From Enhydrobacter aerosaccus (GTDB taxonomy: Bacteria > Pseudomonadota > Alphaproteobacteria > Reyranellales > Reyranellaceae), in assembly GCF_900167455.1 (NCBI RefSeq), contig NZ_FUWJ01000001.1:1054001-1118000 (forward strand): a stretch of 64,000 bases of DNA, in the 5' to 3' direction. Below the pieces are notes generated by a model. It did no database searches and was not told the DNA's origin. It saw only the letters and a program-made list of their open reading frames with translations. Made by a program: the position numbers and the translations under genes. Shown here in pieces: positions 3,748-17,960 of the stretch (the stretch's first letter is position 1; every line of letters begins with the position of its first letter).

Positions 3748-4719
3748 ATGAAATACCGGCCGCTAGGCAAGACGGGACTCCTGGTCTCCGAAATCGGGTT
3801 CGGCGCCTGGGGCATCGGCGGCCGGACGACCGGTCATACTTCCTATGGTGATACCGACGATCGCACCTCGCTGGCGGCACTCGCGCGCGCGTTGGAATGC
3901 GGCATCACGTTCTTCGATACGTCGAGTGCGTATGGCAGTGGTCACAGCGAGGAACTGATTGGCCGAGCGTTCCGGACCGAACGCCACCGGGTCGTGATCG
4001 CCACCAAGGCCGGCTATGAGTCGTGGGATCGTCCTCCCGATTTTTCGCCACGAGCGATCATCGCCTCGACAGAGGGCAGTCTCCGGCGCTTGCAGACCGA
4101 CTACATCGATCTCCTCCAATTGCACAATCCGGCTCGGGAGACGCTCGCGGTCGGTGAGGCGGTCGGCGCGTTACGGGACTTGCAGGAGGCGGGCAAGATC
4201 AGGGCATGGGGCGTATCCACCAAAGGTCCCGCGGAAGCGCTCGAGGCCGTAAGCATGGCGTCGGCGCCGGTCATCCAGATCAATTTCAACATGATGGACG
4301 TCCGCGCCGTGACGACCGGTCTTTTGCAGGAGGCGGTGAAACGGCAGGTCGGAGTCATTGGCCGCACGCCGCTGAACTTCGGCTTCCTGTCGGGCATGGT
4401 TCGGCGGGACACCACGTTCCCGCCGGGCGATCATCGGCTTGGCTGGTCCCGAGCCCAGCTCGACAACTGGATCGATGGCGCGGCCGATCTGCTTCACGCC
4501 GTGGGAGCCGAACCGGGGCCGTCGGCGGTTCAGGCTGCGTTGCGCTTCTGCTTGGCCTTCCCCGAACTCTCGACCACCATTCCGGGCATCCTCACATCCG
4601 ACGAAGCGGAACAGAACGCGCGGGCGAGCGACCTGGGGCCATTGCCGGCCGCTGCCGTGGCGGCGGTCCTCGAGATCAACCGTACTCGGGATTTCTTCGT
4701 CGGCAGGGCAGGCGCTTAG
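3748..4719 (+). CDS. Aldo/keto reductase
   Basis: A 323-residue NADPH-dependent reductase of the AKR superfamily with a (beta/alpha)8 barrel. The catalytic tetrad is visible: Asp and Tyr in FFDTSSAYGSG, Lys in VVIATKAGY and His in LLQLHNPA. The N-terminus KYRPLGKTGLLVSEIGFGAW is typical. AAAGGAG sits seven bases before the ATG. Its position among sugar-nucleotide enzymes suggests reduction of a keto sugar or aldehyde intermediate, but AKRs are common and the substrate is not shown. Confidence 0.9.
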   Translation: MKYRPLGKTGLLVSEIGFGAWGIGGRTTGHTSYGDTDDRTSLAALARALECGITFFDTSSAYGSGHSEELIGRAFRTERHRVVIATKAGYESWDRPPDFSPRAIIASTEGSLRRLQTDYIDLLQLHNPARETLAVGEAVGALRDLQEAGKIRAWGVSTKGPAEALEAVSMASAPVIQINFNMMDVRAVTTGLLQEAVKRQVGVIGRTPLNFGFLSGMVRRDTTFPPGDHRLGWSRAQLDNWIDGAADLLHAVGAEPGPSAVQAALRFCLAFPELSTTIPGILTSDEAEQNARASDLGPLPAAAVAAVLEINRTRDFFVGRAGA

Positions 4720-13875: not shown

Positions 13876-15366
13876 ATGAAAGTGGAATTTTCGGCCTTTC
13901 CGAAGGCTCTTTCCGGCAATGTCGCGGTATTCGTTTCAGCCGATAAGCAACTCCTGCCGACGGCAGAGAGCCTCGACGAGGGGGCGGATGGCGCCATCGG
14001 CCGGGCCATCGAAGCGAGCCGCTTCACCGGTGCCAAGGGCCAGACCCTGGTCGTGCTGGGCCAGGCCGATATCGGCCGCCTGTTGTTGCTCGGTGTCGGC
14101 AAGGCGAGCGAGCTCGACGCCCGGGGCGCGGAGAGCCTGGGCGGCCTGGTCGTGGCCGATGCCAATGCCGCTGGCCAGAAGGCGGTGACGGTGGTCGTCG
14201 ACGTGGTGGAGAAGAGCAAGCTGTCGCCGGCCCAGATCGCGGCCCACATCGCCCTCGGCGCGCAGCTGCGGGGCTATCGCTTCGACAAGTACAAGACCAA
14301 GGAGAAGGCCGAGCAGAAGCCGACGCTGCAGAAGGTCACCGTCGTTGTCTCGGCCGTGGCCGAGGCCAAGCGGGCCTATGCGCCGCTCGAGCCCGCCGTC
14401 GATGCGGTCTTCTTCACCCGCGATCTCGTGAGCGAGCCGGCCAACGTGCTCTATCCGACCGAGTTCGCGCGCCGTGCCAGGGAACTCACCAAGCTCGGCG
14501 TCAAGGTCGAGATCCTGGGCGAGGCCGAGATGAAGCGGCTCGGCATGGGCGCGCTGCTGGGCGTGGGCCAGGGCAGCGATCGCGAGTCCCAGCTTCTCGT
14601 CATGCGCTGGATGAAGGGACCGAAGAACCAGGCCCCGGTCGCCCTGATCGGCAAGGGCGTGTGCTTCGACACCGGCGGCATCTCGCTGAAGCCCGCGGGC
14701 GGCATGGAGGACATGAAGTGGGACATGGGCGGCGCCGGCGCCGTCACCGGTGCCATGAAGCTGCTGGCGGGCCGCAAGGCGCGCGTCAACGTCGTCGCCG
14801 TCTGCGCCCTGGTCGAGAACATGCCGGACGGCAAGGCGCAGCGTCCCGGTGACGTGGTCAAGACCATGTCGGGCCAGACCGTCGAGGTCATCAACACCGA
14901 CGCCGAGGGCCGCCTGATCCTGTGCGACGCGATGTGGTACGCGCAGGAGAAGTTCAAGCCGCAGGCGATGGTGGAGCTGTCGACGCTCACCGGCGCCATC
15001 ATCGTGTCGCTGGGCCATGAGCGCGCCGGCCTGTTCTCCAACAACACCCCGCTGTCCAATCAGCTGCGGGCCGCGGGTGCTGAGATCGGCGAGAAGCTGT
15101 GGCGCATGCCGCTCGGTCCGAAGTACGACAAGCTGATCGATTCCGACATCGCCGACATCAAGAACGTCAGCAACGGCCGCGATGGCGGATCGATCACGGC
15201 GGCGCAGTTCCTGCAGCGCTTCGTGCAGGAGGGCGTGGCCTGGGCGCATCTCGATATCGCCGGCGTGGCGTGGTCGGCCAAGGGCAACGACACCACTCCG
15301 AAGGGCGCGACGGCCTTCGGGGTGCGTCTGCTCGATCGGTGGATCGCGGATAGCTACGAGCGCTGA
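13876..15366 (+). CDS. pepA: Leucyl aminopeptidase (M17 family)
   Basis: A 496-residue cytosolic dizinc or dimanganese aminopeptidase that trims N-terminal residues from peptides. The family signature NTDAEGRL is at residues 340-347, and the metal and active-site segment IGKGVCFDTGGISLKP precedes it. The N-terminal macrodomain-like region and the length match the family. GAGGGAA precedes the ATG. The holC gene follows 7 bp after its stop, an arrangement common in alphaproteobacteria. Confidence 0.96.
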   Translation: MKVEFSAFPKALSGNVAVFVSADKQLLPTAESLDEGADGAIGRAIEASRFTGAKGQTLVVLGQADIGRLLLLGVGKASELDARGAESLGGLVVADANAAGQKAVTVVVDVVEKSKLSPAQIAAHIALGAQLRGYRFDKYKTKEKAEQKPTLQKVTVVVSAVAEAKRAYAPLEPAVDAVFFTRDLVSEPANVLYPTEFARRARELTKLGVKVEILGEAEMKRLGMGALLGVGQGSDRESQLLVMRWMKGPKNQAPVALIGKGVCFDTGGISLKPAGGMEDMKWDMGGAGAVTGAMKLLAGRKARVNVVAVCALVENMPDGKAQRPGDVVKTMSGQTVEVINTDAEGRLILCDAMWYAQEKFKPQAMVELSTLTGAIIVSLGHERAGLFSNNTPLSNQLRAAGAEIGEKLWRMPLGPKYDKLIDSDIADIKNVSNGRDGGSITAAQFLQRFVQEGVAWAHLDIAGVAWSAKGNDTTPKGATAFGVRLLDRWIADSYER

Positions 15367-15373
15367 TGCCTCG

Positions 15374-15826
15374 ATGGCGACGGAAGTCAATTTCTACCAT
15401 CTGACTCGCTCGTCGCTGGAAGAAGCGCTGCCGCGCCTGCTGGTGAAGACCCTGCAGGCCGGCGAGCGCGCCGTGGTGATGCTGGGCTCGCCCGAGCGGG
15501 TCGATGTCCTCAACACCCATCTGTGGACCTACGATCCCAACGGCTTCCTGCCGCACGGCTCCGCCAAGGAAGGCGATGCCGACCGCCAGCCGATCTGGCT
15601 GACGCATCTCGACGAGAACCCGAACGGCGCCGGCTTCCTGTTCGTCGCCGACCACGCCCATTCGGACCGACTGGACAGCTACAAGCGCTGCTTCGAACTA
15701 TTCGATGGACGCGACGACCAGGCCGTCGCCGAGGCCCGCGATCGCTGGAAGGCCTACAAGGCCGCCGGCCACACGCTGGTCTACTGGCAGCAGACCGCGA
15801 CCGGTGGCTGGGAAAAGAAGGCCTGA
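15374..15826 (+). CDS. holC: DNA polymerase III subunit chi
   Basis: A 150-residue protein with the chi-subunit start EVNFYHLTRSSLEEALPRLL, the RVDVLNTHLWTYDPNGFLPHG segment and the C-terminal ALVYWQQ-like strand (TLVYWQQTATGGW). Chi links the clamp loader to single-stranded DNA-binding protein. The ATG at 15374 is 7 bp after the pepA stop, so the two are co-transcribed. The frame is open far upstream, but those residues are the pepA gene in another frame. Confidence 0.93.
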   Translation: MATEVNFYHLTRSSLEEALPRLLVKTLQAGERAVVMLGSPERVDVLNTHLWTYDPNGFLPHGSAKEGDADRQPIWLTHLDENPNGAGFLFVADHAHSDRLDSYKRCFELFDGRDDQAVAEARDRWKAYKAAGHTLVYWQQTATGGWEKKA

Positions 15827-15837
15827 GGTCCCCCCGA

Positions 15838-15877
15838 GACCTGCCCGAATTGCGCAAATCCACTTTCCGCAATTCCG
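15838..15877. repeat. REP-like inverted repeat, copy 1
   Basis: The left arm CTGCCCGAATTGCGCAAA (15841-15858) is followed by five bases and a shorter right arm TTTCCGCAATTCCG (15864-15877). It belongs to the family whose fullest copy is at 16801-16853. It starts 14 bp after the holC stop, so it could also stabilise or terminate that transcript. Confidence 0.75.
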
Positions 15878-15889
15878 CACCACGCCCGG

Positions 15890-15941
15890 CCTCGCATCCC
15901 CTCGTGACGCCGCTTCGCGGCTCCTCGGGATGAGGTCGAGG
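15890..15941. repeat. GC-rich palindromic intergenic repeat
   Basis: CATCCC (15895-15900) pairs with GGGATG (15927-15932), and the inner GCCGC-TTC-GCGGC (15909-15921) forms a tight hairpin. The layout resembles the dispersed palindromes with a GCCGCTTCGCGGC core known from many rhizobial-type genomes; that likeness is from memory. Only one copy is seen in this window. Confidence 0.6.
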
Positions 15942-15965
15942 TTTGGTGCTGCGTAGCTGCTCAAG

Positions 15966-16025
15966 GGAGCGCGCAACTCCAGTTGCGCTCATCTGTATGA
16001 ATGCGCCACTGGAGTGGCGCGCTCC
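15966..16025. repeat. Cruciform-like nested inverted repeat
   Basis: An outer stem GGAGCGCGC (15966-15974) / GCGCGCTCC (16017-16025) encloses two perfect palindromes: GCGCAACT-CC-AGTTGCGC (15971-15988) and GCGCCACT-GG-AGTGGCGC (16003-16020). The stems compete, so either two hairpins or one long stem can form. No T tract follows, so its role is unknown. Confidence 0.7.
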
Positions 16026-16071
16026 TATGAGTCTCCATCCGATCGGAGGACAGGTGGGGAGGGCATTCCGA

Positions 16072-16095
16072 TTTTCCGCAATTCGGGCAGCTCTC
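16072..16095. repeat. REP-like element, right-arm half copy
   Basis: TTTTCCGCAATTCGGGCAGC followed by TCTC matches the right arm of the element at 16801-16853 in the same orientation. It faces the left-arm copy at 16231-16252, and the pair brackets about 135 bp that include the AT palindrome. Confidence 0.7.
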
Positions 16096-16140
16096 ACGAC
16101 GGGGAGCATGTCTGCCGGGCAAAGAGAGAGAAGGGAATAG

Positions 16141-16166
16141 ATATATATCAATATATTGATATATAT
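16141..16166. repeat. Perfect 26-bp AT-rich palindrome
   Basis: ATATATATCAATA followed directly by its exact reverse complement, centred between 16153 and 16154. Only two of 26 bases are G or C. It sits in a gene-free, repeat-filled gap. Such sequences can melt or extrude easily and can bind dimeric or nucleoid proteins; no function is shown here. Confidence 0.85.
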
Positions 16167-16230
16167 TACTTATATCTAACTATCCAAGGACAGCCGATCA
16201 GCCGGCTTCCCGGAGGGACTCCGCCCCGGA

Positions 16231-16252
16231 AGAGCTGCCCGAATTGCGGAAA
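16231..16252. repeat. REP-like element, left-arm half copy
   Basis: AGAGCTGCCCGAATTGCGGA and two further A residues match the left arm of the full element at 16801-16853 in direct orientation. It ends 13 bp before the stop codon of the 160-residue ORF on the minus strand. Confidence 0.75.
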
Positions 16253-16265
16253 GTCCCGGCGGTGC

Positions 16266-16748
16266 TCAGGCGGAGGCGACAGCCCCGTTGGCGGCCTTGG
16301 CGAGCGCGGCATCCAGAAAGGTCATCATGCGATCGACTTCACCGCTGGTATCGCGTCGCACGGCGCCGTTGGGCAGCTTCCACCAGGTCTGGCGGTGGAC
16401 GTCCGCCATCGTCCAGTAGAGGCGGATGAAGCCCGCCAGCAATTCGGTCCGCAGCTCGCTCAGCGCCTGCCGTCTTGGCACACCCTGCGCATCCGCCCAG
16501 CGGCAGGTTGCGGCGATCTCTTGGTGGCAGATCTCTGTCACGAACGGCTCGATATAGGTGCCGCTCCAGAACAGATCCTTCGCGCCGGGTGATTCCTTAT
16601 CGGGGAAGGAGAGCGATTGGCCGTCATGGCTCGTCACGCGCACGCCGTCGTCGTTCATGTAGACCCAAGGCGTGACCTGGTCCCAGATCAGCTTGGAGAT
16701 GGCGTCCCGTACGCGCTTGCGGACGCCCGGCTCGACGGGGTTCGACAT
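16266..16748 (-). CDS. Hypothetical protein, 160 residues
   Basis: I do not recognise this protein. It has no signal peptide or membrane segment and is rich in aromatic residues (WDQVTPWVYMNDDG, LFWSGTYIEPFV, RLYWTMADVHRQTWW). A long helix is likely in the second half. It is the only sensible frame in the interval, but no clear ribosome binding site precedes the ATG at 16748. Copies of the REP-like repeat lie just beyond both ends (16231-16252 and 16801-16853), which may mean it was inserted as a unit. Confidence 0.55.
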   Translation of the reverse strand: MSNPVEPGVRKRVRDAISKLIWDQVTPWVYMNDDGVRVTSHDGQSLSFPDKESPGAKDLFWSGTYIEPFVTEICHQEIAATCRWADAQGVPRRQALSELRTELLAGFIRLYWTMADVHRQTWWKLPNGAVRRDTSGEVDRMMTFLDAALAKAANGAVASA

Positions 16749-16800
16749 GGCGGCTTATTTGCCCTCGGCCACTGATCCCGTCCAGCCTTGGGGCCTGGGA

Positions 16801-16853
16801 GGGAGCTGCCCGAATTGCGGAAAATCAGTTTGCGCAATTCCGGCAGCTCTCCC
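16801..16853. repeat. REP-like inverted repeat, fullest copy
   Basis: The left arm AGCTGCCCGAATTGCGGAAA (16804-16823) and the reverse complement of the right arm (16829-16853) differ at only two bases around a five-base loop. Both arms extend into GGGAG/CTCCC. This is the best-preserved of four copies within 1 kb. It lies between the 160-residue ORF and the end of the FkbM gene. Confidence 0.8.
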
Positions 16854-16880
16854 GGCGTATGGTAACGGCCGGGGCAAGCC

Positions 16881-17960
16881 CTAGCGCCGCGGCCGGACGA
16901 AGCCGCGCCAGGCGGCGGCCAGCCGCTCGCGCAGCGGGACATGGCCCTCGGGCCGATAGAATGCGGCCGAGTCCTTCTCGAACTGAGCGAGATAGTCGGC
17001 ATAGGAGCGGCGTCGCAGGCTGAAGGGCTGCACCTGCGCGGCCAAGGCATCCAGCGCCGCGTCGACCGAGAACAGCGGCTCGAAGACCGAGCGCTCGGCG
17101 AGCAGCAGCTCGGCCGCCACGTCGGGTACGTTCCACAGCGAGAAGATGGCCGCGAGCTTGGCAAGCTTGCCGGCATCGAGCGTGCGACCGCACCCTTTGG
17201 CGGCTGCAGGGTCGAGCGCGTAGTAGGCCTCGCCCATGAACGGGCGGCCGAATTCGGTTTCCGCCGGCGTCGGCCAGATGTAGCGGCCGGGCAGGGCGCG
17301 GGTGGAATAGCGCCGCACCTCGAGATCGAACAGCTCGAAACCCTGGCGGCGCATGAAGCGGTCCGTGTTGTGGAAGCTGTGCTGCAGATCCGAATCCGAG
17401 CCGATGAACATCACCTCGAGCTGGACGGCCATCAGGCCGAATTCCTCGAAGCGGCCGTCGAAGCTCAGCAGCACCTCGAAGTCGTCGCGATCGATGTCGA
17501 TCTTGAGATAGTCGACATTCTTCCAGCCGCGTTCGGCGAGGAGCTGCGGCACGACGATCGTGCGTGCCTCGTCGGCCAATTCCGTGGTTTGCCATTCGTT
17601 CTGGCGCATCCGCTCCTCGTGCGGCGCCTGCGCCAGCCACGCGCGGCGGATCTCGCGCGTCCGCATGTAACTGAAGCGCGGCTGGATCAGGTCTCCGATC
17701 GGCGCGACCGATGTCTTGTGGCGCAGCGGATGTCCTTCCGGCAGGCCGGCAAAGCCCGCGACATAATCCGCGTCGGCGCCTTTCTCGAGACTGGCCAGCC
17801 GCCGGCACTCGCCTTCGCTCGCATCGATGCCGAGGATCCTGAGCTGCGGTTCGAACACCCGCCACTTGGGATCGATGCCGCCGGAACAGCCGACATCGAC
17901 CAGGGCGAAGGGCTCGGACTTCAGGCTTCTTGCAACGAGCTCGGCAAAGGATGCGGGCAT
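16881..17960 (-). CDS. FkbM family methyltransferase
   Basis: A 359-residue SAM-dependent methyltransferase. FALVDVGCSGGIDPKW at about residues 18-33 is the SAM-binding motif I, LGIDASEGE follows as motif II, and VDYLKIDIDRDDFEVL near 160 is the FkbM hallmark. The protein is longer than a plain FkbM domain; the last 90 residues or so form an unassigned helical tail. FkbM enzymes O-methylate sugars and polyketides, so it may modify surface glycans. It lies 6 bp after the cyclase-family gene, likely in one operon. Confidence 0.87.
   Translation of the reverse strand: MPASFAELVARSLKSEPFALVDVGCSGGIDPKWRVFEPQLRILGIDASEGECRRLASLEKGADADYVAGFAGLPEGHPLRHKTSVAPIGDLIQPRFSYMRTREIRRAWLAQAPHEERMRQNEWQTTELADEARTIVVPQLLAERGWKNVDYLKIDIDRDDFEVLLSFDGRFEEFGLMAVQLEVMFIGSDSDLQHSFHNTDRFMRRQGFELFDLEVRRYSTRALPGRYIWPTPAETEFGRPFMGEAYYALDPAAAKGCGRTLDAGKLAKLAAIFSLWNVPDVAAELLLAERSVFEPLFSVDAALDALAAQVQPFSLRRRSYADYLAQFEKDSAAFYRPEGHVPLRERLAAAWRGFVRPRR

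Follow-up and report, generated by a model that had tools for sequence, protein, structure and literature searches.

Organization of the region downstream of holC

The window analysed here comprises 64,000 nucleotides of the 6.77 Mb genome of Enhydrobacter aerosaccus (G000). It contains the gene holC for the chi subunit of DNA polymerase III (positions 15374–15826, plus strand; Pfam PF04364, 125.8 bits), which is followed by a gene-free gap of 439 bp reaching to an open reading frame of 160 amino acids on the opposite strand (16266–16748, minus strand). The right neighbour of this frame is an FkbM-type methyltransferase gene (16881–17960, minus strand; Pfam PF05050, 23.0 bits, barely above the cut-off of 22.7).

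The four types of inverted repeat named in an earlier note on this DNA are all present between 15827 and 16265, and they differ in nature: a doublet of inverted REPs (REPIN), copies of a second palindrome (here called palindrome B), a dispersed type of GC-rich repeat and an AT palindrome. The cluster is interesting but of an ordinary kind among repeat clusters.

The REPIN and its distribution in the genus

The structure at 15960–16031, rightly recognised before as a cruciform-like nested repeat, is an intergenic REPIN, as seen from repeat search, own-genome copies and folding. It is formed by two inverted copies of the REP GGAGCGCGCnACTCCAGTnGCGC with their GGAG heads outside. The left REP (15966–15988, plus strand) carries A-T and the right REP (16003–16025, minus strand) C-G at one variable stem pair, so the two arms are not identical. 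The arms of 29 nt are 86% complementary with 14 nt between them, and as single-stranded DNA the element folds with a z of −9.0.

With up to three mismatches the REP has 133 matches in the own genome compared with 2 for the reversed control. With up to two mismatches it is found in all 65 genomes of the genus, each containing between 1 and 218 matches, while the reversed controls sum to 5; the single match in G004 is no better than its control of 1. When the entire 439 bp were used as query, matches were obtained in 24 of 25 genomes of the genus and in one of 16 others (marginal, 8.6e-4), and among those listed they fall almost wholly in the REPIN part. On plasmids the REPIN had no match.

Half of the 100 REP places listed (of the 133) are taken up by 25 head-outside doublets, and in 16 of these the spacer measures 11–15 nt. 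Other neighbour pairs among the same places include 12 tail-outside and three same-strand pairs, all these frequencies being plain counts rather than comparisons with a formal null model. Five diverged copies of the REPIN, at intervals of about 77–84 bp, form a tandem array at G000:C13:370203-370587 (L004, L009, L014, L017, L020).

The structure of the REP was derived from 56 distinct instances in the fetched own-genome loci. Its commonest layout is TCATnGGAGCGCGCnACTCCAGTnGCGCTCAT, in which the TCAT flanks are looser than the core. One base separates the head from a palindrome with an 8-bp stem and a 2-nt loop, and each of the eight pairs is formed in 49–56 of the 56 instances. The variable pair, the only one not fixed by the search pattern, is paired in all of them (C-G 31, A-T 21, G-C 3, T-G 1). 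CT is found on both sides of the REP, with C in 42 and T in 51 instances at −6/−5 and C in 56 and T in 36 at +22/+23. The head is GGAG in 49 instances, GGGG in four and different in three, where it has to be considered that the pattern itself began with GGAG and allowed up to three mismatches.

RAYT genes and their association with REPs

Two genes for Y1_Tnp proteins are present in the own genome. The first (L048; G000:C13:724122-724673, with the ATG at 1252 taken as start) is flanked on both sides by exact REP matches. Upstream lie two inverted pairs of REPs and, next to the gene, one more REP whose TCAT tail overlaps the ATG; another two REPs follow the gene. Its product reaches 83.7 with the model for REP-associated tyrosine transposases (NF047646, cut-off 80) and matches TnpArep 4er8 (2e-8; HVH versus HMH, tyrosine aligned). 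This locus thus has the composition expected of a RAYT or REPtron, with cognate REPs on either side of a gene for an HUH tyrosine transposase. The second gene (L047; G000:C16:91148-94384) exceeds the NF047646 cut-off too and has GGGG-headed REPs around it.

From 57 Y1_Tnp matches in the genus 31 loci were examined, some of which end at contig ends. The REP of the present element was detected within about 800 bp in 13 of these 31 loci (11 of 29 if the two own-genome loci are excluded), and 18 lack it nearby. At holC only one of 56 loci has it within 900 bp downstream, the scans being unequal (four mismatches at the Y1_Tnp loci; three mismatches and one side only at the holC loci). Over the 65 genomes the median REP number is 45 with and 27 without a Y1_Tnp match (p 0.04). 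No Y1_Tnp match exists in four REP-rich genomes with 113–218 REPs (G006, G048, G080, G062), and only 4–6 REPs are present in four genomes that do have such a match. The genomic neighbourhood thus speaks for a REP–RAYT link that is clear for the two genes of the own genome and loose for the genus as a whole, since most of the loci examined lack this REP nearby, REP-rich genomes can be without the gene and genomes with the gene can be poor in REPs. The REPIN downstream of holC was likely mobilised by a RAYT encoded elsewhere in the own genome.

G048 and G006, with 200 and 218 matches, are the REP-richest genomes and have no Y1_Tnp match; their RAYT may have been lost, the part of the genome containing it may be missing, or these REPs may be served by another enzyme.

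Palindrome B and the 160-residue open reading frame

The repeat that the earlier note had called REP-like does occur in whole and half copies. Judged by its sequence it is a separate palindrome family of low copy number, distinct from the REP of the REPIN. Palindrome B has the layout GCTGCCnGAATTGCGnAAA, 5 nt and then the inverse. A whole copy with degenerate outer stem is located at 15840–15878, 13 nt past the holC stop (fold z −3.83). It is followed by an inverted right half (16070–16095, minus strand) and a direct left half (16231–16255, plus strand), the latter at a distance of 10 nt from the stop codon of the 160-residue frame. The best whole copy lies outside the gap at 16803–16850 (fold z −6.02).

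In the window GCTGCCCGAATTGCGGAAA has five matches with up to three mismatches, where 0.02 are expected. The own genome contains 14 matches of the half (up to one mismatch; control 0), and with the same tolerance the half is found in nine of the 65 genomes of the genus, some of the single hits being probably chance or coding. The strict whole palindrome was detected in one of 289 genomes of the class, i.e. the own one; this set covers only three members of the genus and does not include the nearest relative (G057), in which B copies are present as well.

Two further whole copies directly adjoin REPINs at C17:268676-269081. This region (L002, 1503–1900) is a tandem duplication of a unit of about 240 bp composed of B and REPIN, and by eye the REPIN flank of this unit recurs at C12:64785 (L011). 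An AT-rich stretch precedes the B copy at C8:97111 (L032).

The half copies, if extended to 16070–16106 and 16219–16255, resemble 37-nt terminal repeats. They could be read as terminal inverted repeats of a MITE of a DDE transposon, but this is doubtful, as no second copy of the unit was listed among the 40 candidates scored of 90. A mobiliser for palindrome B was not found.

The 160-residue frame has no match in Pfam, NCBIfam, PHROGs or PADLOC, and it was not found on plasmids or phages. Five distant homologues with 36–39% identity are encoded in G000, G057, G015, G003 and G002.

Comparison with related loci

Altogether 74 holC loci were found, of which 56 entered the REP scan and 57 the comparison of the gap; the remainder are more distant or incomplete. 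An FkbM-type match follows holC on the opposite strand in all 57. The ends of the holC and FkbM alignments are at most 30 bp apart in 32 loci, 31–300 bp in 17 and further in eight, two of which show about 3.7 kb. The 160-residue frame is shared by a single one of the 57 loci, L049 of the nearest relative G057 (contig JAFEFG010000073.1), whose HolC is 95% identical. Between holC and the convergent FkbM-type gene the window thus contains an insertion of about 1 kb (15837–16850) that, together with the frame, is common to L049 only and has the best whole B copy near its right edge.

In L049 the series of B copies is identical in order (whole, right half, left half, open reading frame, whole), the first whole copy having its counterpart at 4467–4513. 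In L049 the arm missing from the right half can partly be recognised by eye (about 4525–4550), which makes a decayed whole copy the best reading of this half. The alignment of the gap reveals neither a REPIN nor an aligned GC-rich palindrome in L049, and window and L049 are too diverged there for an exact insertion junction to be read. As L049 possesses B and the frame but not the two other elements, the cluster seems to have grown (or shrunk) in steps. The B copies and the frame would so represent an older insertion common to two species, with the REPIN and the GC-rich palindrome having been added here or lost in L049.

Among the proposals of the earlier note, a hot spot for repeat insertion fits best, given the dispersed nature of the REPIN, its absence from L049 and the presence of a GGGG-type REP of the same family a few bases past the holC stop in another Reyranella locus (L063). 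Nevertheless, 54 of the 56 holC loci scanned contain neither REP nor B within 900 bp, which argues for a tolerant convergent gap and not for a general target. Besides L049, more than 300 bp separate the holC and FkbM alignments in L053, L056, L057, L059, L068, L076 and L085. L056 is without the 160-residue frame and has by eye a different open frame, so genes may be taken up by this gap repeatedly.

The GC-rich and AT palindromes

The GC-rich palindrome (15895–15935, minus strand) resembles a degenerate copy of the dispersed repeat CATCCTGAGGAG...CGAAGGATG, which has seven strict copies in the genome whereas the reversed pattern has none. It was matched by BLAST (84%) to G000:C16:72256-72310, and a strict copy of the repeat sits at this very place.

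The perfect AT palindrome (16141–16166, 13 + 13 nt) is probably incidental. No second copy was seen among the 40 candidates scored of 90 in the own genome and in 252 fetched loci; the exact palindrome is contained in 15 of the latter, which by range all cover the site 16141–16166 itself. The copy searches comprised these 40 candidates and at most 16 per genome, so that the AT palindrome or the whole unit may have further copies. Two promoter-like matches (0.3 expected) both fall on this palindrome, one per strand, and were not counted as functional evidence.

Folding of the region

The assertion that the concentration of inverted repeats is far above the rest of the window holds for folding but not for exact stems. 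In a scan of 2556 windows of 100 nt, those at 15951, 16076 and 15876 rank first (z −5.0), fourth and sixteenth by fold z, the control being first-order Markov resampling with 25 sequences per window and not an exact dinucleotide shuffle. The 100-nt window at 16801, outside the gap, ranks tenth, and the remaining ones of the region are ordinary (for instance, z 0.0 at 16201). No excess is seen for exact stems (arms of at least 11 nt, loops of up to 40 nt): the whole window has four, one of them in the region, compared with 1–3 in each of six resampled sequences. A structured RNA had also been suggested for the cluster, and this reading found no support in Rfam: from 15000 to 17500 no family reached the gathering score, and of the five sub-threshold hits four are to microRNA models and one is to H19.

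Origin of the cluster

We consider it highly probable that the cluster formed by small palindromic elements, among them a RAYT-mobilised REPIN, accumulating in layers in a convergent 3′-end gap. The older layer would be the roughly 1-kb insertion that separates holC from the FkbM-type gene and contains the 160-residue gene and several B copies, some of which later decayed to halves. A second layer, present here but not in L049, would comprise the REPIN and the degenerate CATCCTGAGGAG-type repeat. Its position downstream of both flanking genes may be the reason why the gap tolerates such insertions.

Most likely the REPIN reached this site as a non-autonomous element that was moved by a RAYT, a single-strand HUH tyrosine transposase. 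The REP hairpins would form in single-stranded DNA, and the RAYT would recognise the GGAG head together with the stem, cut beside the REP, where the consensus has CT on both sides, and join the strand elsewhere. For the Escherichia coli enzyme cleavage at CT 5′ or 3′ of the REP is reported in the available part of PMC8266576. Either of the two RAYTs of the own genome may have moved the REPIN.

Alternatively, the cluster could act as a 3′-end RNA or as a termination or stability element whose transcribed hairpins block readthrough or exonucleases. This reading, which is compatible with an origin by REP insertion, is possible but rather doubtful. B copies are positioned about 10–30 nt from the stops of holC, the 160-residue frame and the FkbM-type gene, likewise in L049, the REPIN folds very stably, and published REPs are found mostly near 3′ ends, between convergent or unidirectional genes (PMC3733652, as far as its accessible text describes them). 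On the other hand, the cluster contains neither an intrinsic-terminator-like site nor an Rfam family at threshold, nearly all holC loci scanned manage with neither REP family (54 of 56), and the B copy at C17:268680 seems by eye to lie upstream of a gene start.

It is unlikely that palindrome B, as a separate lineage-restricted REP-like family, marks with its whole copies (15840 and 16803) the boundaries of a unit with which the 160-residue gene entered the gap and on which the REPIN later landed. The arrangement behind this reading is seen at one locus in two species, and as a general rule it is disfavoured because the loci of the five distant homologues have no B at up to four mismatches; B was for this reason rejected as general carrier of the gene. 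The inverted repeats at these five loci are GC-rich pairs with about 70–88% complementarity, unlike B. If B did carry genes, it would add to the REPIN another, unexplained type of small mobile unit.

Some enterobacterial REP clusters are reported to bind gyrase or IHF-like proteins. A comparable function as nucleoid-protein or supercoiling site, with an AT-preferring protein binding the AT tract and gyrase or IHF-like proteins the REPs, is quite improbable here. The tract (16120–16179) has a GC content of 22% in a window of 65% GC, is AT-rich by eye in L049 too and lies between convergent genes, and its palindrome folds better than shuffled sequences (z −3.37); against such a function, this palindrome has no second copy among those seen and is imperfect in L049.

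An accidental cluster of unrelated inverted repeats is extremely improbable, as copy number refutes it for the REPIN and for B (own-genome reversed controls of 2 and 0), and it is plausible only for the AT palindrome, of which no second copy was seen, and for the GC-rich palindrome with regard to its weak fold (z −0.74, equalled by 44 of 200 shuffles). The earlier note had been ready to accept an accident if the elements were single-copy and absent from relatives, and this applies to the AT palindrome as far as seen but not to the other three.

Relation to described REP systems

The REPIN and its likely RAYT have close parallels in the REPIN/RAYT systems described by Bertels and Rainey in 2011 and in a 2013 paper on the evolution of REP diversity (accessible parts of PMC3116915 and PMC3686654). 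These comprise inverted REP doublets with short spacers that form hairpins, are spread over the genome and belong to a RAYT flanked by the same REPs; tandem clusters and, in fluorescent pseudomonads, a short spacing between head and palindrome are reported too. The element downstream of holC likewise is an inverted REP pair whose short spacer allows a hairpin, and its REP is dispersed in many copies, frequently as doublets. Differences concern the head and the abundance. Canonical REPs have the head GT[A/G]G (PMC3686654, in the part available), which is replaced here by GGAG and in a minority by GGGG, although the palindrome follows just downstream of the head as in canonical REPs; the copy number, with 133 REP matches, is modest. 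Published definitions place the doublet among REPINs and the gene among RAYTs. With respect to the GGAG head we therefore assign the system to REPIN/RAYT with variant head and not to canonical GTAG REPs.

TnpAREP classes with flanking REPs that deviate from the GT[AG]G consensus exist according to the accessible text of PMC6006769, and such atypical REPtrons share the non-canonical heads with the present system; GGAG as the start of a word is absent from the main text of that paper. CGTC-tagged REPs, described in the part of PMC3733652 at hand as dispersed short palindromes mostly of Alphaproteobacteria and without a dedicated transposase, are similar in their dispersal. We do not assign the CATCCTGAGGAG repeat or palindrome B to these REPs, whose described tag and stem layout was matched with neither. 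Literature searches with sequence strings (CTCGAAGGATG and those of REP and B) yielded nothing relevant, the results for CTCGAAGGATG being judged by titles and the beginnings of abstracts.

Among open-licence papers no description of REPIN/RAYT in Reyranella was found. The data presented here document a GGAG-headed system of this type in the genus and one site at which the stepwise build-up of a repeat cluster can be read against a relative (L049). Two head variants are associated with RAYT genes in one and the same genome, GGGG at L047 and GGAG at L048, and they possibly represent two cognate pairs.
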